From NCBI RefSeq assembly GCF_000236585.1, contig NC_017278.1:1240001-1304000 (forward strand): a stretch of 64,000 nucleotides of DNA, given 5' to 3'. Positions 5,824 through 49,230 of the stretch are shown here, piece by piece. Origin of the DNA: Thermus sp. CCB_US3_UF1. GTDB taxonomy: Bacteria > Deinococcota > Deinococci > Deinococcales > Thermaceae. Position 1 is the first letter of the stretch, and each line of letters opens with the position of its first letter. The translations under genes and the position numbers were made by a program. Under the pieces are notes generated by a model, which had not been told where the DNA came from, did no database searches, and saw only the letters and a program-made list of their open reading frames with translations.

Positions 5824-6507
5824 CTAGGCGTGCTCCTCCCCCACCACCCGCCCGTCCTCCAGGCGGACGATGCGCTTCACGTGCTCCAGAAGCCTGGGGT
5901 CGTGGGTGGAGAAGAGGAAGGTCACGCCCCGGGCCTCGTTCAGGGCCTTCATCCGCTCGATCAGGGCCAGGCCGTTGCGGGAGTCCAGGTTGGCGGTGGG
6001 CTCGTCGGCCAGGACGATCAGGGGTTCCGCCGCCAGGGCCCGGGCCACCGCCACCCGCTGCTGCTCTCCCCCGGAAAGCTGGCGGGGAAACCGCCCCGCC
6101 TTGTCGGCCAGGCCCAAGGCCGCCAGGGCCTCCCAGGCCCGCCGTTCCCGCTCGGCCCGGGGAAGACCCCGGAGCTCCAGGACAAAGGCGGCGTTCTCCA
6201 AGGCGGTGAGCACGGGAAGGAGGTTGTAGGCCTGGAAGACCAACCCCACCTTCTCCAAGCGGAAGCGGGCCCTTTGGGAGCGGCTGAGGCGGTCCAGCCG
6301 CACCCCTCCCACCCAAACCTCCCCCTCCGTGGGCAGGTCCAGGCCCGCCAGAAGGTGGAGCAGGGTGCTCTTGCCGCTCCCCGAGGGGCCCACCAGGGCG
6401 GTGAACTCCCCGGCCTCCACCGCCAGGCTCACCCCCCGCAGGGCCTCCGTCTCCACCCCGTCCCCCCGGTAAACCTTGCGCACGTTCCTGGCTTCCAAAA
6501 TGGGCAT
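5824..6507 (-). CDS. ABC transporter ATP-binding protein, LolD/MacB type
   Basis: A 227-residue single nucleotide-binding domain. Walker A is GPSGSGKST, the Q-loop lies in [12 protein letters not shown], the signature is [15 protein letters not shown], Walker B is [14 protein letters not shown] and the H-loop is FLFSTHD. The ADEPTANLD form is typical of the LolD/MacB/FtsE group, which pairs with FtsX-fold permeases. Two such permeases are encoded just upstream (6517-7722 and 8415-9593). It probably drives mechanotransmission-type export of lipoproteins or envelope components rather than import. Confidence 0.93.
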
Positions 6508-6516
6508 ACCTTCCCC

Positions 6517-7722
6517 CTAAGGCGTGTAGCGCATGGCCTCCACCGGCTCCAGCCTCGAGGCCAGATACCCTGGCCAAAGGGCGGCCAACACCGCGACCCC
6601 CACGGAGTACCCCAAGGTGAGGAGGACCTCCCCTACCCCTAGCCTCCCATAGAGCACCTCCGGCAGGCCAAACTCCCGGTACTGCTCCAGGATCCACCGG
6701 GGTAGGGGGAGGCGGAAACCATCGGCCAGCTCCAGGTGCACAAGAAGCCCCACCCCCACCCCCACCAGGGCCGCCACCCCCACCAGGAGGAGGCTTTCCC
6801 AGAAGACCAAGGCCAAAAGCCTCCGCCCCGTAAGGCCCAGGGCGGCCAATAGGCCAAACTCCCGCACCCGCTCCACCAGGGAAAGGTAGAGGGCGTTGAG
6901 GAGGATCAGCCCTCCCAAGAGGAAAAAGATACCCACGTAAAGGGCCATCACCGTGTCGTAGAAGGGAAGGATGGCCGCATAAAGGGGGTTGGCCTCCAGC
7001 CAGGTTTCCGCCACCAGCCCCTTAAGATGGGGTTGCAGGGCGGCCTTCAGCGCCTCTAGGGGCTTGAGGTCATACAGGCCTATCCCCGCAAGGCGGATCT
7101 CCAGCCGGGTGACGCGCCCCGGGGCCAGCAGGGCCTGGGCGTCCGCCAGGGGCACCAGGGCGGTGCGGGCTTCCAGGTGCGTTTCCGGCAGGTCTAAAAG
7201 CCCCACCACCCGGAAGGCGTAAACCCCAAGGCCCATCCCCCCGGGGGCGTAGGCCGCCACCTCGTCCCCGAGCCGCACCTTCAGGGCCTGAGCCAGGGCC
7301 TCGCCCAGAAGGGCCTCCCCGGGGCCCTGGGGCAGGCGCCCCGCCACGAGCAGGTTTGCCTGACGGGCGAACCCCTGGGCCTCGAGGCCGGTGAAGGCCA
7401 CCGCCCGGCTCCGCTCCCCGGCGATGAGGAGGCCACCCCCCTCCAAAACCCCCTCCACCTCCGCCCCCTCCGGCAGGGGCAGGCGGGGCGGAAAGAAGGC
7501 CAGGCGCTCCAGGTCCTCCCCTTCCCGGTACCCCTCGGCCCGCACCACCAGGTGGCCGGTCCGCTCCAGCACCAGGCGGAAAAAGGCGTCAAAGGCCCCA
7601 GCGTAGACGGAGAGAAACACCAGGGAGAGGAAGACCACCAAGGCCACCACCCCCCCGGTGGTGAGGCTCCGGCCTGGGGTGCGGAGGAGGTTGCGCCAGG
7701 CCAGCCGCAGCACCCCTAACAC
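6517..7722 (-). CDS. FtsX-fold ABC permease (LolC/MacB-like)
   Basis: A 401-residue permease with the MacB/LolC layout: a basic start (LRLAWRNLLRTPGRSLTTGG), TM1 at about residues 22-46, a large extracytoplasmic domain to about residue 250, then three C-terminal membrane helices at about 255-280, 300-325 and 370-390. The ERVREFGLLAALGLTGRRL loop between TM2 and TM3 is the usual coupling region with the ATPase. Its start overlaps the LolA-like stop by 7 nt. Probably a heterodimer partner of the FtsX protein at 8415-9593. Confidence 0.9.
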   Translation of the reverse strand: MLGVLRLAWRNLLRTPGRSLTTGGVVALVVFLSLVFLSVYAGAFDAFFRLVLERTGHLVVRAEGYREGEDLERLAFFPPRLPLPEGAEVEGVLEGGGLLIAGERSRAVAFTGLEAQGFARQANLLVAGRLPQGPGEALLGEALAQALKVRLGDEVAAYAPGGMGLGVYAFRVVGLLDLPETHLEARTALVPLADAQALLAPGRVTRLEIRLAGIGLYDLKPLEALKAALQPHLKGLVAETWLEANPLYAAILPFYDTVMALYVGIFFLLGGLILLNALYLSLVERVREFGLLAALGLTGRRLLALVFWESLLLVGVAALVGVGVGLLVHLELADGFRLPLPRWILEQYREFGLPEVLYGRLGVGEVLLTLGYSVGVAVLAALWPGYLASRLEPVEAMRYTP

Positions 7723-8411
7723 CCCCTTTCCAGGTACAGGGGGTTGAAGCAGCGCTCCGGCACCGGGCCCACCCGCACCTCACCGATCTCCACCCGGGTA
7801 CGGTACCCGGAACGCAGAAGGTCCCTAAGCTCCATCTCCCGGGGAAGGTAGGCCTCCTGGAAACGTTGGTAGCCTGCAAGGAGGAGTTCCCGCACCCCCT
7901 GGCCCCGCTGGTCGTAGTAGAGCACCCGCTCCACGAGCCCCCCCTTGAGGTAGACCTCTACCCGGCCGTAGGGGGTGGCGGCCCCAGGCCTGGGGGTCAG
8001 GACCAGGACCCCCTTTTCCTCCGCCACGGAAAAAAGCGCCTCCAGGTCCCGGCCCATCAGGTCCTGGTAGGTGAGGTCCGAGCCCAGGAAGCGCTCGCTC
8101 CGCCCCGTGGGGGGAAGGCGGAGGGTGCGGCCCAGCCGGGGATCGTAGAGGTATAGGTCCTGGCCCAAGGAGAGAAAGGCCTGCCCCGCCTCGCTCCTTG
8201 GTTCCAGAACCCGGATATGGGCCCGCTCCCCGTCGGTGTAGACCTGAAGCCGGTAGGTGCGCATCGAGCCTGGCCGCTCCACCAGGAGGGTGTAGACCGC
8301 CTGGTGGGCGGGTCCCCGCAGGCGGTCCAGGGCCGCGCGCAGCTTTTCCTCAGGGCTTTGGCCCAGGGCCATCAGGCCGAGCCACAGGAACAAGAAGGCC
8401 CAGCGTCGCAT
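7716..8411 (-). CDS. LolA-like outer-membrane lipoprotein-sorting family protein
   Basis: A 231-residue exported protein with signal peptide MRRWAFLFLWLGLMALGQ. The body is strand-rich with the SFLSLGQDLYLYDPRLGRTL and FLGSDLTYQDLMGRDLE pattern of the LolA/LolB-fold sorting-protein family that accompanies FtsX-type transporters. A Cys in PERCFNPLYLERGC near the C-terminus has a second Cys as the last residue, a possible disulfide. It sits between two FtsX permeases, which points to a periplasmic lipid or lipoprotein carrier working with them. It is not the housekeeping LolA by context alone. Confidence 0.8.
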   Translation of the reverse strand: MRRWAFLFLWLGLMALGQSPEEKLRAALDRLRGPAHQAVYTLLVERPGSMRTYRLQVYTDGERAHIRVLEPRSEAGQAFLSLGQDLYLYDPRLGRTLRLPPTGRSERFLGSDLTYQDLMGRDLEALFSVAEEKGVLVLTPRPGAATPYGRVEVYLKGGLVERVLYYDQRGQGVRELLLAGYQRFQEAYLPREMELRDLLRSGYRTRVEIGEVRVGPVPERCFNPLYLERGC

Positions 8412-41496: not shown

Positions 41497-42252
41497 ATGA
41501 TACGCATAGACCTCAACGCCGACGCGGGGGAGTCCTACGGGGCCTTTGCCTATGGCCACGACCGGGAGCTTTTTCCCCTGGTGACCTCGGTCAACCTGGC
41601 CTGCGGCTTCCACGGGGGAAGCCCCGGGCGCATGCGGGAAGCGGTGGCCCTGGCCAAGGCCCACGGGGTGGCCGTGGGGGCCCATCCTGGTTTCCCCGAC
41701 CTGGTGGGGTTTGGCCGGCGGGAGATGGCCCTAAGCCCCGAGGAGGTCTACGCCGATGTCCTCTACCAGATAGGGGCCCTCTACGCCTTCTTGAGGGCTG
41801 AAGGCCTAGGCCTCCACCACGTGAAGCCCCACGGGGCCCTTTACCTCAAGGCCTGCCGGGACCGGGAGACCGCCCGGGCCATCGCGGAGGCGGTGCGGGC
41901 CTTCGATCCGGAACTCCCCCTGGTGGTCCTCCCCGGAACCGTCTACGAGGAGGAGGCCAGGAAGGCGGGGCTTAGGGTGATGCGGGAGGCCTTTCCCGAA
42001 CGGGCCTACCTGCGAAACGGCCAGCTTGCCCCCCGCTCCCTGCCCGGAAGCTGGATCACCGACCCCGAGGAGGCCGCCCGGCGGGCGCTAAGGATGGTCC
42101 TCGAGGGCAAGGTGGAAGCCCTGGACGGGGGCGAGGTGGCGGTGCAGGCGGAAACCCTCTGCATCCACGGGGATAACCCCAAGGCCCCTGAGGTGGCCCA
42201 GGCGGTACGCCAGGCCCTGGAAGGGGCGGGCGTGGCGGTGAAGGCCTTCTAA
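41497..42252 (+). CDS. pxpA: 5-oxoprolinase subunit A / LamB-YcsF family protein
   Basis: A 251-residue protein. MIRIDLNADAGESYGAF, LVTSVNLACGFHGG, VGAHPGFPDLVGFGRREMAL, HVKPHGALY and the ending ETLCIHGDNP are conserved across PxpA. With PxpB and PxpC it cleaves 5-oxoproline to glutamate using ATP; no pxpB or pxpC is present in this window. Start ATG 41497 has GAGGGAGGAG just upstream; ATG 41485 is an alternative. It follows the TRAP transporter by about 100 nt in the same direction. Convergent with the MFS gene. Confidence 0.9.
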   Translation: MIRIDLNADAGESYGAFAYGHDRELFPLVTSVNLACGFHGGSPGRMREAVALAKAHGVAVGAHPGFPDLVGFGRREMALSPEEVYADVLYQIGALYAFLRAEGLGLHHVKPHGALYLKACRDRETARAIAEAVRAFDPELPLVVLPGTVYEEEARKAGLRVMREAFPERAYLRNGQLAPRSLPGSWITDPEEAARRALRMVLEGKVEALDGGEVAVQAETLCIHGDNPKAPEVAQAVRQALEGAGVAVKAF

Positions 42253-43403
42253 GCCCCCTCCCCCCTGCCCTGCACCAGCCAGGCCGAGGAGGCCATGAGC
42301 AGGGAGAAGAGGAGCACCGTGAGGGCGAAGGCGGGGGCGTGGCCATAGGGGCGGTCTAGGAACGCGTAGACCAGACCCCCCAAGGCGCTTCCCAGGGCCT
42401 GCCCCAGGGTCCGGGCCACGGAAAGGGCCCCTGAGGCCAGGCCCTCCAAGCCCTTGGGGGCCAGGGAGAGCACCTGGGCGTTGTTGGCCGCCTGGAAGAG
42501 GGCCCGCCCCGTGCCCAGGAGCACAAGCCCCAGGCCTGCTCCCCACAAGGGGTGGAGGAGGGGCAAAAGGGCAAAGGCCACCCCCGCCCCCACCAAGAGG
42601 TAGGCCCCCCGCAAGGCCACCGGGGCGTAGCCCCGCCGGTCAGCGGCCCGCCCCGCCCAGGGCCCTAGGAGGAGAAGCTGCAAGGGACCAAGGAGGAGCA
42701 AGCCCCCTATGGCCGCCGGGGAAACCCCCTCCTCGGAGAGGAAAAAGGCCAGGACCACGGTGGTCCCTAGGGTGTGGAGGAAGTAGAGAGCCGTGGCCAA
42801 AAGGGCCGCCATAAAGCCTGGGGCCCGCAAAAGCGCCCTAAGATCCGCCCGCTGGGGGGGCAGGCCGGGCAGGTGGCGGGCCAGGGCCAAGGCCAGAAGG
42901 GCAAAGGGCAGGGGGAGAAGGAAGACGTAGCGGGCCTCGAGGGAAGCCGCCATGCCCCCCAAGGCCGGCCCCAGCAGCGTGCCCGCGGCCACGGTGCCCG
43001 CCACCATGCCCATGGCGTAGCCCCGGGCCTGGGGGAAGCTGCTGGTGGCCAGTCCCGGCACCAAGCCCACCACCATGGCCGTGGCCACCCCCTGGAGGAA
43101 GCGCAGAGCATAGACCTGGCCCAAAGAAGAGGCCGAAAAGAGGAGAAGGGCAAGGAGGGAGTGAAGGAGGAGGCCCAGGCGGAAGAGCCGCGCCGCCCCC
43201 ACCCTTCCCCCAAACCAGGCCAAGGGCAAGTAGGCCAAGGCCGCCCCCAAAAGCCCCGCCGAGGCCACCCCCTGGGCCGCCTCAGGCCCCACCCCGAACG
43301 CCCGGGCCAGGAAGGGGAGCACCGGGGCCAGGCTGCTTTCGCTGACCGTTCCCAAGAGGACGCCGGAAAGAAGGGCCAGCAGCCTAGCCTTCACACCCGG
43401 CAC
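42249..43403 (-). CDS. Major facilitator superfamily transporter
   Basis: A 384-residue, 12-helix MFS protein. The first-half loop motif GGRVGAARLFRLGLLLHSLLALLLF and the second-half AGRAADRRGYAPVALRG are typical, and YAMGMVAGTVAAGTLLGPALGG resembles the helix 5 motif of drug/H+ antiporters. Start GTG 43403 follows GAGGGG; TTG 43421 is a longer option. Last gene of the minus-strand aromatic operon, so it may import an aromatic acid or export a toxic intermediate. Confidence 0.85.
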   Translation of the reverse strand: MPGVKARLLALLSGVLLGTVSESSLAPVLPFLARAFGVGPEAAQGVASAGLLGAALAYLPLAWFGGRVGAARLFRLGLLLHSLLALLLFSASSLGQVYALRFLQGVATAMVVGLVPGLATSSFPQARGYAMGMVAGTVAAGTLLGPALGGMAASLEARYVFLLPLPFALLALALARHLPGLPPQRADLRALLRAPGFMAALLATALYFLHTLGTTVVLAFFLSEEGVSPAAIGGLLLLGPLQLLLLGPWAGRAADRRGYAPVALRGAYLLVGAGVAFALLPLLHPLWGAGLGLVLLGTGRALFQAANNAQVLSLAPKGLEGLASGALSVARTLGQALGSALGGLVYAFLDRPYGHAPAFALTVLLFSLLMASSAWLVQGRGEGA

Positions 43404-43437
43404 CTTACCCCTCGGCCCCAAGGCGCAGGTTCCCCCC

Positions 43438-44439
43438 TCACCCCCCTGCCCGCCAAAGGTCCGGACGCCTGCGCCCCCCCACCTCCACCCCCGGCCAGAG
43501 GGGATCCTCGGTGAGGTTCTCCAATCCCCCCTCGGTCAGGAGGAAGGTGTCCTCCACCTTGGCCCCCGGGAGGCTCGGGTTCCAGGCCAAGGCCATCCCG
43601 GGTTGCAGGCGCAAGGGGTGCCCGGGCGTGGCCACGGCCTCGCGGGGACGGTACCCCCCCACCCCCCCTTGGTGGTGCTCCTCCCAGGCCCCCGGAAAAC
43701 CCACCGCCCCGTAGGCCGCCTGAAGGCTCGCCAAGACCGCCCCCAAGGAGGTTCCCGGGCGGGAATGGTCCAAGGCCACCCCCTCCACCCGCAAGACCTT
43801 GCGGTAACGGGCCTCCACCTCCCTATCCCCAAGGTGGGCCATCCGCGTCAGGTTGGCCACCAAACCCCGCCGCTCGGCGCAGACCACGGCCATGAAGGCC
43901 CGCCCCAAGGGGTAGTCCTTGGGCAGGGGGTGGCGGTGGCGGAAGACCCGCTCCTCCCCGGCCACCAGAAGGAGCAGGGGACGTATCCCCAAGGCCCATA
44001 GGGCCTCGGATAGGGCCCCGGCCAACTCCCTCTCCCGCCAGCCGGGCCTTGCCGCCCGCACCACCTCCCCCACCGCATGAGCGGCCTCCCTCCCCAGACG
44101 GCGGAAGGTGGCTTGGGCTTCCTGGGAGAGGCGCAGGCGCAAGGGGGTGAGGTCGTGTTCCAGGTCGTTGGGGCTTCCCGGTGGAGGGAAGGCGTACCAC
44201 GGATGGACCCGCACGGGCAGGCCCGGCACCTCCTCCTCCAGCATGCGGGGGTGCTCGATGCGGGTGGTGTGGAGGACGATCTCCTCCCCCACCTCCAGGT
44301 AGGCCACGCCCTCCCCCAAGCCCAGGGTGTTGCTCCCCCCCGTGAGCCAGGCGAAGTTTTCCGGTTGGGAGACGAAAAAGCGGGAAAAACCCCGCTCCCT
44401 CATGAAGGCTTGCAGCCGTCCCCAGTGCTCCTGGTCCAT
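43438..44439 (-). CDS. Pita-bread-fold (M24/creatinase-like) protein lacking most metal ligands
   Basis: A 333-residue protein with an N-terminal creatinase-type domain and a C-terminal M24 fold. Against canonical M24 peptidases, the first two Asp ligands correspond to Cys and Asn (AVVCAERRGLVANLTR), the central His motif survives as EEHHQGGVGGY, the first Glu is replaced in LAWNPSLPG, and the last Glu is kept in KVEDTFLLTEGG. It is thus unlikely to be a dimetal aminopeptidase. Creatinase shows that the fold can work without metal. Its place in a gal/lig-like operon suggests a hydrolase or lyase on a ring-cleavage product (inference). Confidence 0.78.
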   Translation of the reverse strand: MDQEHWGRLQAFMRERGFSRFFVSQPENFAWLTGGSNTLGLGEGVAYLEVGEEIVLHTTRIEHPRMLEEEVPGLPVRVHPWYAFPPPGSPNDLEHDLTPLRLRLSQEAQATFRRLGREAAHAVGEVVRAARPGWRERELAGALSEALWALGIRPLLLLVAGEERVFRHRHPLPKDYPLGRAFMAVVCAERRGLVANLTRMAHLGDREVEARYRKVLRVEGVALDHSRPGTSLGAVLASLQAAYGAVGFPGAWEEHHQGGVGGYRPREAVATPGHPLRLQPGMALAWNPSLPGAKVEDTFLLTEGGLENLTEDPLWPGVEVGGRRRPDLWRAGG

Positions 44440-44461: not shown

Positions 44462-45250
44462 CTATTCCGCCAGGGGCAGGGCCGCCAACTCCCGAAGCTG
44501 CGCCGCCGCGGCCTGGGCCACCCTGGGCTCCACCCCCAGTTCCCGGAGGAGTTCGGCCGCCGCCAGCATCTCCTCGTGCCGCCTTAGGGCGTGGCGCAGG
44601 CTCCCCTCCACCAGGCGGTCCACCAGCCCCTCGTCCGCTTCCTTGAAGCTTTGGGCGATGTTGGCCCGGATCTCCCCCTCCAGTCCCAGCCGCCTGGCCG
44701 CCTCCAGGGCCTCCACCACCGCCGCGGCCATGCCCTTGAAGAAGACGCTCCTCAGGAGCTTCCGGGTGGCGGCCTCTCCCGGGCCTTCCCCCACCACCTC
44801 CACCCGGGCCCCTAAGGGGACCAGGGCCCGGGCGTAGGCCTCAGCACCGGGGCCGGAAACCAGGGAAGGGGTCTTGAGCCCCCGGCCCGGTACGGGGCTC
44901 ATCAGGGCCACGTCGGCGAAAAGGGCCCCCGTGGAGGCCACCGCCGCGGCCAGGGTCCGCTTGAGCCCGGGGGAGGCGGTGTTCAGGTCGGCGAAAACCT
45001 GGCCCGGCCGCAGCACCGGGGCCACCCGCTGGACCACCTCCAGGGCCACCCGGGCCCAGTTCACGGAAAGGACCAGGTCCACGCCCTCCGCGGCCTCCGC
45101 CTCGCTGCCCGTCCGCCAGATCCCCAGGACGCCCTTCTCGGGCAAGGGGTCGTAGCCCACCACCTCCGCCCCAGCCTGGAGAAGGTCCTTAGCGATCTCC
45201 GACCCCGCCTCCCCCAGGCCCAGCACCCCTACCCGCAACCTCCTAGCCAT
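44462..45250 (-). CDS. 6PGDH-like NAD(P)-dependent dehydrogenase with DUF1932 C-terminal domain
   Basis: A 262-residue beta-hydroxyacid-dehydrogenase-like protein. The Rossmann motif is VGVLGLGEAGSEIAKDLL, followed by DLNTASPGLKRTLA and the DUF1932-type helical C-terminus with KLLRSVFFKGMAAAVVEALEAA (the Lys-containing active-site helix). Substrate unknown. In this operon it could oxidise a ring-cleavage hemiacetal or semialdehyde, the step done by LigC in the 4,5-cleavage pathway, but LigC is from another family. Overlaps the aldolase gene by 8 nt. Confidence 0.82.
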   Translation of the reverse strand: MARRLRVGVLGLGEAGSEIAKDLLQAGAEVVGYDPLPEKGVLGIWRTGSEAEAAEGVDLVLSVNWARVALEVVQRVAPVLRPGQVFADLNTASPGLKRTLAAAVASTGALFADVALMSPVPGRGLKTPSLVSGPGAEAYARALVPLGARVEVVGEGPGEAATRKLLRSVFFKGMAAAVVEALEAARRLGLEGEIRANIAQSFKEADEGLVDRLVEGSLRHALRRHEEMLAAAELLRELGVEPRVAQAAAAQLRELAALPLAE

Positions 45251-45911
45251 CCCCCGCCTCCCGAGCCCGCTCCACCTGGGCCAGGGCCTCCTTTAGCCCC
45301 TCCCGCAGGCCGTAAAGGTCCAGGGAGAGCTCCCCCCGGGCAAACCGCTCCCGCAAGGCAGCCTCGCGGCCAGCCCGTTCCCTAGCCCTCTGCAAAACCT
45401 CCCGGGCCCGCTCCCGCCGCACCACCACCACCCCGTCCCCGTCCAGGACCAGGTAGTCCCCCAGCCGCACCTCCACCCCCCCTACCCGCACGGGCACCCC
45501 CAGGCCCAAAACCCTCTCCCGCCTGGCCCCCCGGGGGCTCACCCAGCGGGCCCAAACAGGGAGGCCCAGGGAAACGAGCTCGTCCCGGTCCCGCACCGCC
45601 CCATCCACCAGGAGGGCCGCCGCCCCCTGGGCCTTGGCCTGGGTGGCCAGCAGCTCCCCCACCAGGGCCACCGGTTCCGGCTCGGGCATGCCTAGGACCA
45701 GGACCTCCCCCGGCCTCAAGGCTGCCATGGCCGCATGGGCCCCCAGGTTGTCTCCTTGGGCGCAGAGGACCGGCAGGGCCGGCCCCGCCGCCTTGGCCCC
45801 CTCGGGAATCCGCAGGAAACCCGCCTGTACCAGGCCCTCCCTTCCCGAGGCCTCGTACAGGGTGGCGCTCCCCAAGGCCGCCAGCTCCCGCACCTCCTCC
45901 GGGCTCAGCAT
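45243..45911 (-). CDS. ligK: 4-carboxy-4-hydroxy-2-oxoadipate aldolase / RraA-family protein (LigK/GalC type)
   Basis: A 222-residue RraA-fold aldolase. The signature is GDNLGAHAAMAALRPGEVLVL with AALLVDGAVRDRDELVSLGLPVWARWVSPRG, where the Arg-Asp pair binds pyruvate and the divalent metal. The C-terminal GLKEALAQVERA helix is as in LigK. LigK/GalC splits 4-carboxy-4-hydroxy-2-oxoadipate to pyruvate and oxaloacetate and also decarboxylates oxaloacetate. Directly follows the GalB gene, its pathway predecessor. Pathway call is strengthened by this pairing. Confidence 0.88.
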   Translation of the reverse strand: MLSPEEVRELAALGSATLYEASGREGLVQAGFLRIPEGAKAAGPALPVLCAQGDNLGAHAAMAALRPGEVLVLGMPEPEPVALVGELLATQAKAQGAAALLVDGAVRDRDELVSLGLPVWARWVSPRGARRERVLGLGVPVRVGGVEVRLGDYLVLDGDGVVVVRRERAREVLQRARERAGREAALRERFARGELSLDLYGLREGLKEALAQVERAREAGDG

Positions 45912-45920
45912 CCTCCCCTC

Positions 45921-46631
45921 CTAAAGGCTGCGGACCACCTGGGGCAAGACCCTCTGGAAGGCCTCGGCCCGCGCAATCTCCTTCTGGCCGGAGATCCGCC
46001 GGGCGTGGTTGGCCCGGTGCTCGGCCCGTTCGGCGTAGTAGCGCTGCAGGTACCGCTGCGAAGCGAAGGCCTCCATGGCGGCTACCTTCTTCTCCCACAC
46101 CGGGGTGATGTCCAGGAAAAGGTTGGGCACAAACCCGCAAAGCTCCGGCTGGTGGGGCTCAAAGAGGAGAAACTCGGGAGGGTTTATGGTCCTGAAGGCG
46201 CTGGCCACCCCCGCGCCCGAGGCCAGCTGCCGGGCCAGCTCCGTGGCCTCGTAGGCCACGGGGTGGTCGGGGTTGAAGGGATCCTGGGGGGTGTGGGTGA
46301 TGAGAACCTGGGGGGCGAAGTCCACCAGGATGCCCACCAGCCGCTCCAAGGCCTCCTCCCCCACCCGCAAGGGGTAGTCCCCCAGGTCCAAGGGGAGGAA
46401 GTCCGCCCCCAGGATGGCCGCCGCCTGGCTAGCCTCCTGGTGGCGGATGGCCTTCACCCTTTCCAAGGTCTGTCCGGGCTCCTTCCAGAGCTCCCCCGAC
46501 TCCCCCCGCTCCCCGTAGCTCAGGGCCACCACCAGGGCCTTTCCCCCCTGGGCCACGGTCAGGGCGATGGCTCCCCCCGCCCGCCAGACAAAGTCCGCGG
46601 CATGGGCGCTAACCACCAGGAGCCGCTTCAT
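45921..46631 (-). CDS. galB: 4-oxalomesaconate hydratase, GalB (PIG-L family) type
   Basis: A 236-residue protein of the PIG-L/LmbE deacetylase fold. The metal motif is AHAADFVWRAGGAIAL (His, Asp), with VVALSYGERGESGELW and a third ligand in FNPDHPVAYEAT. These and the LFEPHQPELCGFVPN and HARRISGQKEIARAEAFQRV tracts match my recollection of the GalB hydratases of gallate degradation rather than sugar deacetylases. GalB hydrates 4-oxalomesaconate to 4-carboxy-4-hydroxy-2-oxoadipate. ATG 46631 overlaps the upstream stop (ATGA). Confidence 0.88.
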   Translation of the reverse strand: MKRLLVVSAHAADFVWRAGGAIALTVAQGGKALVVALSYGERGESGELWKEPGQTLERVKAIRHQEASQAAAILGADFLPLDLGDYPLRVGEEALERLVGILVDFAPQVLITHTPQDPFNPDHPVAYEATELARQLASGAGVASAFRTINPPEFLLFEPHQPELCGFVPNLFLDITPVWEKKVAAMEAFASQRYLQRYYAERAEHRANHARRISGQKEIARAEAFQRVLPQVVRSL

Positions 46632-47539
46632 CCCCCACCTCCTCGCGCCAAAAGGCTGGGCACCTCCACGGCCATATGCCGCACCTCTGCCTCGGAAAAA
46701 CCCGCCCCCAGGAGCCGGTCGGCGAAGAGGGCCAAGCCCTCTTCCACCGGGGGGTTTTTGGGCTGGCCCAGGTCCGTGGAGAGGAAGCTCCGCTCCACCC
46801 CTGCCCCCCGTATGGCGGCAAACAGCCTTTCCCAAGGGACTTTCCCCGTCCATGAGGGAGCCAGGCAGCGCTCCAAGTAGGCCCCTTGCCCCGCCAGGTA
46901 CCTCTGCTCCTCTATGGAAAGGTTCTGGGTGGGATAGTCGGGATGGGTGACCACCACCTGCCGGACGCCTTCCTCGAGGGCAGCCTCCACCACCTTTAAA
47001 ACCTCCTCCCGGGAAAGGTGGCCCGTGGCCAGGACCAGGCCGTGGCGGGCCACCACCCGGAGCACGGCCCGCGCCTCGGGCCGTACCCGGCCCGTCCCGT
47101 CCAGGACGGCGATGGGCGGCGGGAGGAGCCCCTGCCCGGCAAACTCCCCCTGCAGCCTGGCCCATTGGGGCCGCTTCTCCGCAGGAAGCCCCTCCACCTC
47201 CCCGGCCTCGTTGGCCGCGTCCACGGTGGGCATCCAGACAAAGCGAGCCCCAGCCCGGGCCGCCACCTCCACGGCCAAAGGGTTCAGGCCCCCCACGGCG
47301 TGGTTCAGCACCACCGCCCCCAGAACCTCCACCCCGGGTACCGCCTTGCGCACCACCTGGGCCCGCTCCGCCGTGGGGGCGTAGTGGGATTTGAGGAGGA
47401 AACCCCTAAGCCCCAGTTCCCGAAAGCGCCAGGCCAGGGTGAGGTCATCGGTCTTGCGGGGAAGGATGTCGGGCTCCACGTGGACGTGGAGATCGTAAGC
47501 CCCCTGCACCAGGGCCAGGGCCCGCTCGCTTGGCCTCAC
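46628..47539 (-). CDS. DUF6282-like TIM-barrel metal hydrolase
   Basis: A 303-residue amidohydrolase-like barrel. DLHVHVEPDILPR (metal HxH, about residues 17-19), FLLKSHYAPTAERA, LATGHLSREEVL, VVVTHPDYPTQNL and FLSTDLGQPKNPPVEEG give the expected order of metal and catalytic residues. I recognise it as a DUF6282-type protein with no established reaction. Its place between regulator and GalB suggests a lactonase or hydrolase acting just before 4-oxalomesaconate, the LigI step, though LigI belongs to a different amidohydrolase branch. Confidence 0.8.
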   Translation of the reverse strand: MRPSERALALVQGAYDLHVHVEPDILPRKTDDLTLAWRFRELGLRGFLLKSHYAPTAERAQVVRKAVPGVEVLGAVVLNHAVGGLNPLAVEVAARAGARFVWMPTVDAANEAGEVEGLPAEKRPQWARLQGEFAGQGLLPPPIAVLDGTGRVRPEARAVLRVVARHGLVLATGHLSREEVLKVVEAALEEGVRQVVVTHPDYPTQNLSIEEQRYLAGQGAYLERCLAPSWTGKVPWERLFAAIRGAGVERSFLSTDLGQPKNPPVEEGLALFADRLLGAGFSEAEVRHMAVEVPSLLARGGGG

Positions 47540-48195
47540 GCCCCACCCCCCTTGGCCTGGCGCAAGGCGGCGATGACCCCCTGGAGGTGGGCCTTCATGG
47601 CCCTTTCCGCCGCCTCCTCATCGTGGGCGGCCACCGCCTCCAGGATAAGGCGGTGCTCCTCCAAGGAGCGCTGCGAGCGCCCCGGCACCAAAACCGTGCG
47701 GAACTGGTGCCGCACCCCTTGGGCCCGCAGGGCCTCGATGAGCCTCCTGGCCGCTCCATGGCCGGAGATCTCCACCAGGGTGCGGTGGAAAAGGCTATTG
47801 AGCTCGGACATGCCCAAAAGGTCCCCCTCCCGGAAACGGGCCTCCATCTGGGCGTGGATCTGGCGCAACCGGGCGATCGCCTCCGGCGTGGCCTTGCGGG
47901 CCGCGTGGCGCACCGCCAGGCATTCCAGGGCCATGCGGGCCTCGAGGATCTCCACCGCCTCCTCCTCGGTAATGACCCGCACCCAGGCCCCCCGGTAGGG
48001 CTCGCTCTCCACCAGACCGTCCTGTTCCAGCTTGGCCAAGGCGGTGCGGATGGCCGCCCGCCCCAGGCCGAAACGCTCGGAAAGCTCCTTCTCCACCAGG
48101 CGCTGCCCGGGAAGGAGCTCCCCCTGCAGGATGGCCTCCCGCAACCGTTGGTAGGCCTGCTGCACCTCGGTGGCCTTCTCTAGAGCCGGCATCAC
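47536..48195 (-). CDS. GntR-family (FadR/FCD-type) transcriptional regulator
   Basis: A 219-residue regulator. The winged helix at about residues 12-75 contains YQRLREAILQGELLPGQRLV and ELSERFGLGRAAIRTALAKL; the C-terminal FCD domain keeps the metal-ligand pattern (LNSLFHRTLVEIS, EEHRLILEAV, HLQGV). The ligand is probably an aromatic acid or ring-cleavage acid. It lies inside the gal/lig-like operon, overlapping both neighbours, and is the best candidate to bind the ATTGT-NN-ACAAT operators at 49215 and 62916. ATG 48192 region overlaps the dioxygenase stop. Confidence 0.92.
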   Translation of the reverse strand: MMPALEKATEVQQAYQRLREAILQGELLPGQRLVEKELSERFGLGRAAIRTALAKLEQDGLVESEPYRGAWVRVITEEEAVEILEARMALECLAVRHAARKATPEAIARLRQIHAQMEARFREGDLLGMSELNSLFHRTLVEISGHGAARRLIEALRAQGVRHQFRTVLVPGRSQRSLEEHRLILEAVAAHDEEAAERAMKAHLQGVIAALRQAKGGGA

Positions 48196-49181
48196 GCCTC
48201 CTCCACCGGGGGAACCCCGTAGGTGTGGAAGCTCTCCACGGTTTTAAGCCCCCAAGCCTGGCCCTTCTTCCGCTCCTCCTCGTCCCAAACGATGGGCTTC
48301 CAGTCGGGGGCCAAAAGAAGCCGGGCTCCCGGGCAAGCCACCTCAAAACGGCACCCCCCCGGCTCGTAGACGTAGAGGAAAAAGGTCTGCTGGATGGCGT
48401 GCTTGTGGGGGCCGGTCTCGATGAAGACCCCGTGCTCCAAGCAGACGTCCGCCGCCCGCAAAACCTCCTCTCGGCTGTCCACGGCGTAGGTGAAATGGTG
48501 CAGCCGCCCCTTGGCCCCTAGGTGGTCCTTGGTGATGGCCACGTCGTAGGTTTTGTTGGTGCAGGTGAGCCAGGCCCCTTGCTCGCTGCCGTCGCGGAAG
48601 AGGATCTGCTCCGTCACCTTCATGCCCAGGAAATGTTCCATGAAAGCCCGCACCGCCCCCACATCGGAGGCCAAGAGGTTCACGTGGTCCAGCCGCCTCA
48701 GGTTGGCCCCCCTTCCGGGAAAGCGGGAGGCCTGGTTCTTCAAGGCGGGCCGGGTGGCCTCCGTGGGGGTGTACCAGCGGGTTTCGTAGTAGAGCTCCAT
48801 CGGGTGCCCATCCGGGGTGCGGAAGCGGTAGGCGGGGCCGTGCCCCAGGTCGCCTTCCGTCCACCCTTCCCCCAGACCCAAGGCCTCCAGGGCCCGGACC
48901 CGCCGCAGAAGCCCCTCGGGGCTCTTGGCGCGGAAGGCCAGGTGGCCGAGGCCGGGCCTTTTGTCCGCGGTGAGCTTCAGGGTGTGGAACTCGTAATCGT
49001 CCCAGCCCCGCAGGTAGTAGGAGTCCCCTTCGTGCCCGCTCACCTCCATCCCCATGACCTGGGTAAAAAAGCGCAGGCTTTCCTCCAGCTTCGGGGTGAG
49101 GAGTTCCAGGTGGGCCAGGTGGGCCAGGTCCCCGTAGGGCCAACGCCCCCAGGCATCTTGGGTAAAAGCGTGCGCTTCCAT
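48192..49181 (-). CDS. Type I (VOC) extradiol ring-cleavage dioxygenase, catechol 2,3-dioxygenase-like
   Basis: A 329-residue two-domain VOC dioxygenase. Fe(II) ligands appear as the His in LRRLDHVNLLA (about residue 151), the His in GRLHHFTYAV (about 215) and the Glu in GGCRFEVACPG (about 268). [22 protein letters not shown] and the C-terminal HTYGVPPVEEA resemble thermophilic/Bacillus-type catechol dioxygenases. Its sister at 61907-62878 shares these blocks. First gene of the operon with GalB and LigK, so its substrate may be a carboxylated catechol such as protocatechuate or a gallate-like acid (inference). Start ATG 49181 follows GAGGGGG. Confidence 0.9.
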   Translation of the reverse strand: MEAHAFTQDAWGRWPYGDLAHLAHLELLTPKLEESLRFFTQVMGMEVSGHEGDSYYLRGWDDYEFHTLKLTADKRPGLGHLAFRAKSPEGLLRRVRALEALGLGEGWTEGDLGHGPAYRFRTPDGHPMELYYETRWYTPTEATRPALKNQASRFPGRGANLRRLDHVNLLASDVGAVRAFMEHFLGMKVTEQILFRDGSEQGAWLTCTNKTYDVAITKDHLGAKGRLHHFTYAVDSREEVLRAADVCLEHGVFIETGPHKHAIQQTFFLYVYEPGGCRFEVACPGARLLLAPDWKPIVWDEEERKKGQAWGLKTVESFHTYGVPPVEEA

Positions 49182-49194
49182 AGCCTTCCCCCTC

Positions 49195-49230
49195 ACCCTA
49201 CGCCAACGTCAACGAAATTGTCAACAATCT
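49195..49230 (-). promoter_or_regulatory. Promoter and GntR-type operator of the gal/lig-like operon
   Basis: On the minus strand TTGACA (49224-49219), an 18-nt spacer and TAGGGT (49200-49195) form a good promoter 13 nt before the dioxygenase ATG. The -35 lies inside the 16-bp site AAATTGTCAACAATCT (49215-49230, plus strand), core ATTGT-NN-ACAAT. The same site recurs at 62916-62931 over another TTGACA. Confidence 0.65.

Follow-up and report, generated by a model that had tools for sequence, protein, structure and literature searches.

The M24-fold protein encoded in the analysed window (a stretch of 64,000 nucleotides from Thermus sp. CCB_US3_UF1) is probably a sugar enzyme: the metal site of the fold has been lost, and the genes for its relatives belong to operons for the use of galactose, xylose and other sugars. 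Tentatively, it is proposed to be a metal-free aldose 1-epimerase (mutarotase) that would fill the galM slot, in a subfamily working on free aldoses. On an equally tentative footing, the subfamily may represent a widespread metal-free mutarotase of Deinococcota, cyanobacteria, Pantoea and haloarchaea, built on the M24 fold, non-orthologous to GalM and annotated as a metallopeptidase. If true, this would give a role to proteins that carry a peptidase name in two domains of life, add a new fold to the mutarotases while extending the pita-bread fold to sugar chemistry, and supply the galM/xylM step that Thermus-type sugar pathways lack.

Fold and metal site of the window protein

The gene was found at the coordinates given in the preliminary description (Table 1). 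A Pfam search identified matches to Peptidase_M24 (PF00557; 1.8e-11, 44.6 bits against a cut-off of 23), confirming that an M24 domain is present, and to Creatinase_N (PF01321; 2.5e-5); the source genome contains four M24 matches, including this one. The protein was modelled with AlphaFold2 at a mean pLDDT of 95.9 and a pTM of 0.92, and superposition of the model, a check that the preliminary description had itself proposed, agreed with the pita-bread fold predicted there. VIA-align Z scores were 30.3 to the E. coli Xaa-Pro aminopeptidase 5cnx, 28.3 to EutD/DoeA (6yo9), 28.1 and 28.0 to the creatinases 1kp0 and 1chm, and 27.5 to Spt16. Nearly the whole length of the model was covered by its matches to M24B peptidases, EutD/DoeA, creatinase, DddP and Spt16, with Z scores from 30.3 to about 26 among the matches listed. 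The Xaa-Pro aminopeptidases and dipeptidases (M24B; YpdF, prolidase) are alike in full-length fold and are distant sequence matches of the window family (1pv9, 4.5e-19 with a profile); in the window protein, however, other residues stand in for four of their five metal ligands and for the conserved His that comes next.

Residue equivalences rest on sequence alignments, the main one joining 46 subfamily members with 15 further M24 proteins from the source organism's own bacterial family, of which 14 have canonical ligands; the exception, L139, is also one of the 20 control loci used below. The canonical D-D-H-E-E ligands align to V185, N196, G259, N287 and E296, and only the last is kept. By alignment, the same four ligands are absent across the whole subfamily, the pattern being present in 36/36 aligned Deinococcota members (alignment A2, from which disrupted and most near-identical loci were excluded) and in 26/26 members of alignment A1, including those of cyanobacteria, Pantoea and haloarchaea; such consistency argues against chance or decay. 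With the dimetal centre gone, peptidase activity is improbable, as had been proposed. A metallopeptidase with an alternative metal site would be in keeping with the M24 fold, but is highly improbable in view of this subfamily-wide loss and of the sugar-operon context described below.

The ligand loss noted in the preliminary description thus stands in corrected form. Its Asp-to-Asn and Glu-to-Asn replacements were right, whereas its count of three replaced ligands has to be raised to four, as His is also replaced (by Gly259). The first ligand Asp was rightly recognised as lost, but its replacement had been read as Cys187. In a gapless alignment this residue lies two positions past the Asp, which is matched by Val185; a profile alignment to 1pv9 opens a gap nearby that would allow C187 at this position, and neither residue is Asp. 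The assignment to V185 is the most likely one. This position is V, I, L or T in the subfamily, and C187 is invariant in A2 and replaced by Gly, Thr or Val in the Pantoea and haloarchaeal members of A1. The last Glu does remain, as E296, but the central His region, said to remain as well, does not do so as a ligand: G259 of the HHQGG motif occupies the place of the ligand His and R266 that of the next conserved His, while H255 matches the canonical second-shell His.

Table 1. Features of the M24-fold gene and its neighbours (window coordinates)
Feature	Position	Strand	Basis
Metal-less M24-fold protein, 333 aa	43438..44439	-	ORF, ATG start; Pfam; AlphaFold2 model
MFS transporter, 16 bp downstream of the M24 gene	42249..43421	-	Pfam MFS_1, 2.4e-36
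NAD-binding/DUF1932 dehydrogenase, terminal gene of the conserved aromatic operon	44462..45250	-	Pfam
Remainder of the operon: C23O, GntR/FCD, DUF6282, PIG-L, RraA/LigK-like	45243..49196	-	Pfam/NCBIfam
N-domain residues E62, R65, E69	44233..44256	-	Invariant in A1 and A2
His170, candidate acid/base	43930..43932	-	Invariant in A1 and A2
Val185, first ligand-Asp position (most likely)	43885..43887	-	Joint alignment with canonical M24
Cys187, Asp replacement in the preliminary description	43879..43881	-	Alignment; two past Asp, gapless
Asn196, second ligand-Asp position	43852..43854	-	1pv9 profile and joint alignments
HHQGG motif, residues 255-259; G259 at ligand His	43663..43677	-	Invariant; alignments
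Arg266, next conserved His position of canonical M24	43642..43644	-	Alignments
Asn287, first ligand-Glu position	43579..43581	-	Alignments
Glu296, sole retained ligand; candidate acid/base partner	43552..43554	-	Alignments

A set of polar residues is invariant in both A1 and A2, comprising E62, R65, E69, R164, H170, R199, H255, H256, Q257, R266, N287, K294, E296 and D297, and the window copy retains every invariant residue of the subfamily. In the gapless alignment, the canonical substrate-site His falls two residues before H170. The loss of the metal site could also mark a non-catalytic pseudoenzyme, binding sugars or regulating within sugar operons, and Spt16, a non-peptidase M24 homologue, is a parallel for such a loss. 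This is unlikely, however, as an active site would call for just such a dense array of invariant polar residues (three His, with Glu, Asp, Lys and Arg), which bacterial and haloarchaeal members share.

Creatinase provides a metal-free precedent within the fold, and the preliminary description was right to look to metal-free enzymes of this kind. A metal-free site of the type proposed here has its precedent in the ectoine hydrolase EutD of S. meliloti, which scores 837.8 bits to TIGR02993 and has lost the same four ligands as the window subfamily while keeping the last Glu. EutD nevertheless carries a Glu at the first-Asp position, where the window protein has V185 in the gapless alignment, and the window subfamily lies in sugar, not ectoine, operons. 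No match to TIGR02993 or NF038259 was found in the window protein by NCBIfam search, the only match being PRK10879 at 19.3 bits against a cut-off of 465. Creatinase (creatine amidinohydrolase) is likewise similar in fold but only 14-15% identical over the aligned part, and again the window family differs in its sugar-operon setting.

Genomic context of the subfamily and of the window copy

A gene for xylA, xylB, galT, galK, GH42, GH36 or a FucI-like protein was found within 5 kb of the M24 gene in 30 of the 31 other Thermaceae genomes that carry it, compared with 0/20 other M24 loci of the same bacterial family used as controls. The survey, with queries taken from loci L029, L057 and L033 (L057, from G017, being among the 31) and applied equally to the controls, excluded the source genome and G027, which has a 49-residue fragment. 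Within 300 bp and on the same strand, galK was present in 18/31 and galT in 19/31. The one exception, G032, has its gene near a contig end, with a fragment of a xyl-type SDR gene downstream. Orthologues thus lie in operons for free sugars, and the window copy itself does not. The typical Meiothermus-type order is GH42-GH36-galT-M24-galK, and on Thermus plasmids xylA-xylB-M24 is followed by Gfo/Idh/MocA and SDR genes ('Thermus' and 'Meiothermus-type', as labels for relatives' genomes, are inferred from named relatives). A galA-galT operon in T. thermophilus HB27 is noted in the accessible part of PMC5307791, which also refers to other work on the gal loci of Thermus, where the neighbouring ORF may be mentioned.

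Outside the Thermaceae, sugar-type neighbours were found at 13 of 17 fetched Deinococcota loci, in a context of FucI-like isomerase, PfkB, aldolase and Gfo-Idh genes. A FucI-like isomerase is among the neighbours in eight (one of which, L084, also has GH31), and other loci have galK (L098), GH43 (L088), or Gfo/Idh or aldolase genes (L087, L090, L099). With the labels and scans used, no sugar neighbour was seen at L086, L089, L093 and L095, two of which are on contigs shorter than 4 kb. Beyond Deinococcota, loci were drawn from plasmid records. Among 19 annotated plasmid loci in all, those of Thermus included, 16 have glycosidase or sugar-catabolism genes nearby. Cyanobacterial M24 loci have malQ and glucoamylase genes and haloarchaeal ones arabinofuranosidase or GH2, with no obvious sugar gene near one Natrinema locus (L035). 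Two Pantoea plasmid loci have GMC and SDR oxidoreductase genes (order GMC-M24-SDR) together with ROK and MFS genes.

The gene appears to have moved between operons. Copies in the xyl and gal operons of G049 are 96.0% identical, and in the tree xyl and gal copies of Thermus are intermixed, sisters swapping operons, with the window copy among them and nearest to xyl copies. The activity is therefore expected to be one that serves both D-xylose isomerisation and the Leloir pathway. In G049, the gal genes are separated from the M24 gene by a glycerol-3-phosphate oxidase/dehydrogenase-like gene (L052:6212-7762). Some Thermus copies are disrupted (G025, G041, plasmid pTHTHE1601); at L053, L055, L030 and G027:C106:15964-16110, disrupted or fragmentary copies still have gal genes as neighbours. 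For the window copy, dN/dS was 0.15-0.30 in comparisons with seven Thermaceae copies (74-80% identity) and 0.37 with an eighth copy, taken from a different Thermaceae genus, which indicates purifying selection; together with its complete set of invariant residues, these values rule out a pseudogene.

The setting of the window copy is atypical, as it has moved out of a sugar operon and now lies beside an operon for aromatic catabolism; xylA was not found in the source genome in one search. This conserved Thermaceae operon (C23O-GntR-DUF6282-PIG-L-RraA-DUF1932; 44462-49196, minus strand) is accompanied by a divergent aldehyde dehydrogenase gene and resembles a meta-cleavage pathway with a LigK-like aldolase at its end. 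Its DUF6282 gene occurs in 17/50 Thermaceae genomes, including the source genome, and at L121 (G048; 5829-8003) its C23O gene matches as two separated pieces, as if interrupted. The preliminary description had suggested from this neighbourhood that the protein acts on an aromatic-derived acid, and a role of this kind, acquired by co-option, would suit the position of the gene, which follows the DUF1932 gene on the same strand after about 22 bp, as well as its purifying selection. It is nevertheless very unlikely. Ten of 16 other loci of the operon were fetched, and an M24 match was absent from the retrieved stretch in 10/10, one of which (L127) is truncated where its contig ends. G035 has the flanking TRAP/LamB genes in common with the window, but between DUF1932 and LamB it carries a different reading frame that by inspection looks like a TRAP-type solute-binding protein. 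Since the aromatic operon is conserved without the gene and orthologues lie in sugar operons, the aromatic-acid interpretation fails as a function of the family. In its new place the window copy may retain the ancestral activity, or it may have been co-opted.

Candidate reaction and the distribution of GalM

The step common to these sugar pathways is the handling of the free aldose anomer. The protein is a candidate mutarotase because interconversion of free-aldose anomers is the obvious step shared by the xyl and Leloir pathways, and it would then stand in for GalM by supplying the required anomer to galactokinase, xylose isomerase, or other sugar isomerases or dehydrogenases. In such a mechanism, E296 or one of the invariant His residues would deprotonate the C1 hydroxyl and H170 or H255/H256 would protonate the ring oxygen, upon which the ring would open, the aldehyde rotate, and the ring close as the other anomer. 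The sugar hydroxyls could be held, at the former place of the metals, by R199, R266, N287, K294 and D297, along with E62, R65 and E69 of the N-domain.

GalM-type aldose 1-epimerases (PF01263) would share this reaction and the position in galactose and xylose operons. They have a fold unrelated to that of M24, however, and no PF01263 or PF05025 match was found in the window protein by Pfam search. The sulfoquinovose mutarotase YihR belongs to the classical aldose-1-epimerase family, unlike the window subfamily. As an overlooked mutarotase found through its operon context, YihR does offer a precedent, according to the accessible part of PMC5902678. Within the accessible part of the open-licence PMC literature, no link of M24 proteins to mutarotases or to these sugar operons was found.

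PF01263 was found in none of the 27 same-genus genomes and not in G049, whereas of these 28 genomes galK is present in 27 and galT in 28. PF01263 does occur in 18 of the remaining 22 Thermaceae genomes; 17 of these 18 carry the M24 gene too, so that both are present in 17 of the 21 non-Thermus Thermaceae genomes having the M24 gene. The sole non-Thermus Thermaceae genome without the M24 gene, G020, also lacks galK and galT and has a fragmented assembly. In one Meiothermus-type genome, the PF01263 protein reaches 32.9 bits, far below the galM_Leloir cut-off of 397.65, and RbsD/FucU was found in 4/50 Thermaceae genomes. A strict replacement of GalM fails by presence and absence, because the two families co-occur in these 17 Meiothermus-type genomes; a weak contrast remains in family f5, where of 39 genomes three have both, 14 the M24 gene only, 11 PF01263 only and 11 neither, giving a tendency to mutual exclusion with a one-sided p of 0.038 when relatedness is ignored. 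Of the 27 same-genus genomes, 16 have galT (nearly all of them also galK) and neither of the two families, so that a mutarotase is not essential in them. Mutarotation proceeds rapidly on its own in the heat, which fits the many Thermus genomes with neither family. Overall, the distribution of GalM is suggestive, not decisive, in favour of a mutarotase.

Against a mutarotase stand the location of the window's own copy outside a sugar operon, the disruption of several Thermus copies, and the frequent Gfo/Idh/MocA, GMC and SDR neighbours, which would also suit an enzyme acting on oxidised sugars. Another sugar chemistry in the same pocket, by an aldonolactonase or an enzyme acting on the keto-sugar produced by these neighbours, accordingly ranks next, although it is rather unlikely. 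Gfo/Idh/MocA genes adjoin the M24 gene in xyl operons and at other Deinococcota loci, the Pantoea gene lies between GMC and SDR genes, and the xylose route of Haloferax is oxidative, as stated in the accessible part of PMC3102087. The arrangements galT-M24-galK and xylA-xylB-M24, however, serve pathways with no lactone or keto-sugar step, in which an oxidoreductase is not needed.

Hydrolysis of a C-N bond, for which the preliminary description had cited creatinase, was not indicated, because the steps encoded by galT, galK, xylA and xylB involve no C-N bond and the Glu of EutD is V, I, L or T here. The closest metal-free precedents of the fold do cut C-N bonds, and a creatinase- or EutD-like hydrolase might clear the glycosylamines or Amadori products to which reactive aldoses give rise, but this is distinctly unlikely, no recurring amine-handling genes having been seen beside the M24 gene in the loci examined.

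Two further observations concern the surrounding operons. Of the FucI-like isomerases (L085:5079-6485, L091:6722-8095, L096:13489-14667 and L092:2132-3505), the three that were scanned matched nothing in Pfam at 1e-5, and that of L092 has a weak NCBIfam match to sulfoquinovose isomerase. Their operons, which also hold genes for a PfkB kinase, a LacD-type aldolase, Gfo/Idh and the M24-fold protein, may encode a sugar pathway yet to be characterised. In a Meiothermus-type gal operon, a gene for a PIG-L family deacetylase (L057:10918-11766) follows galK.
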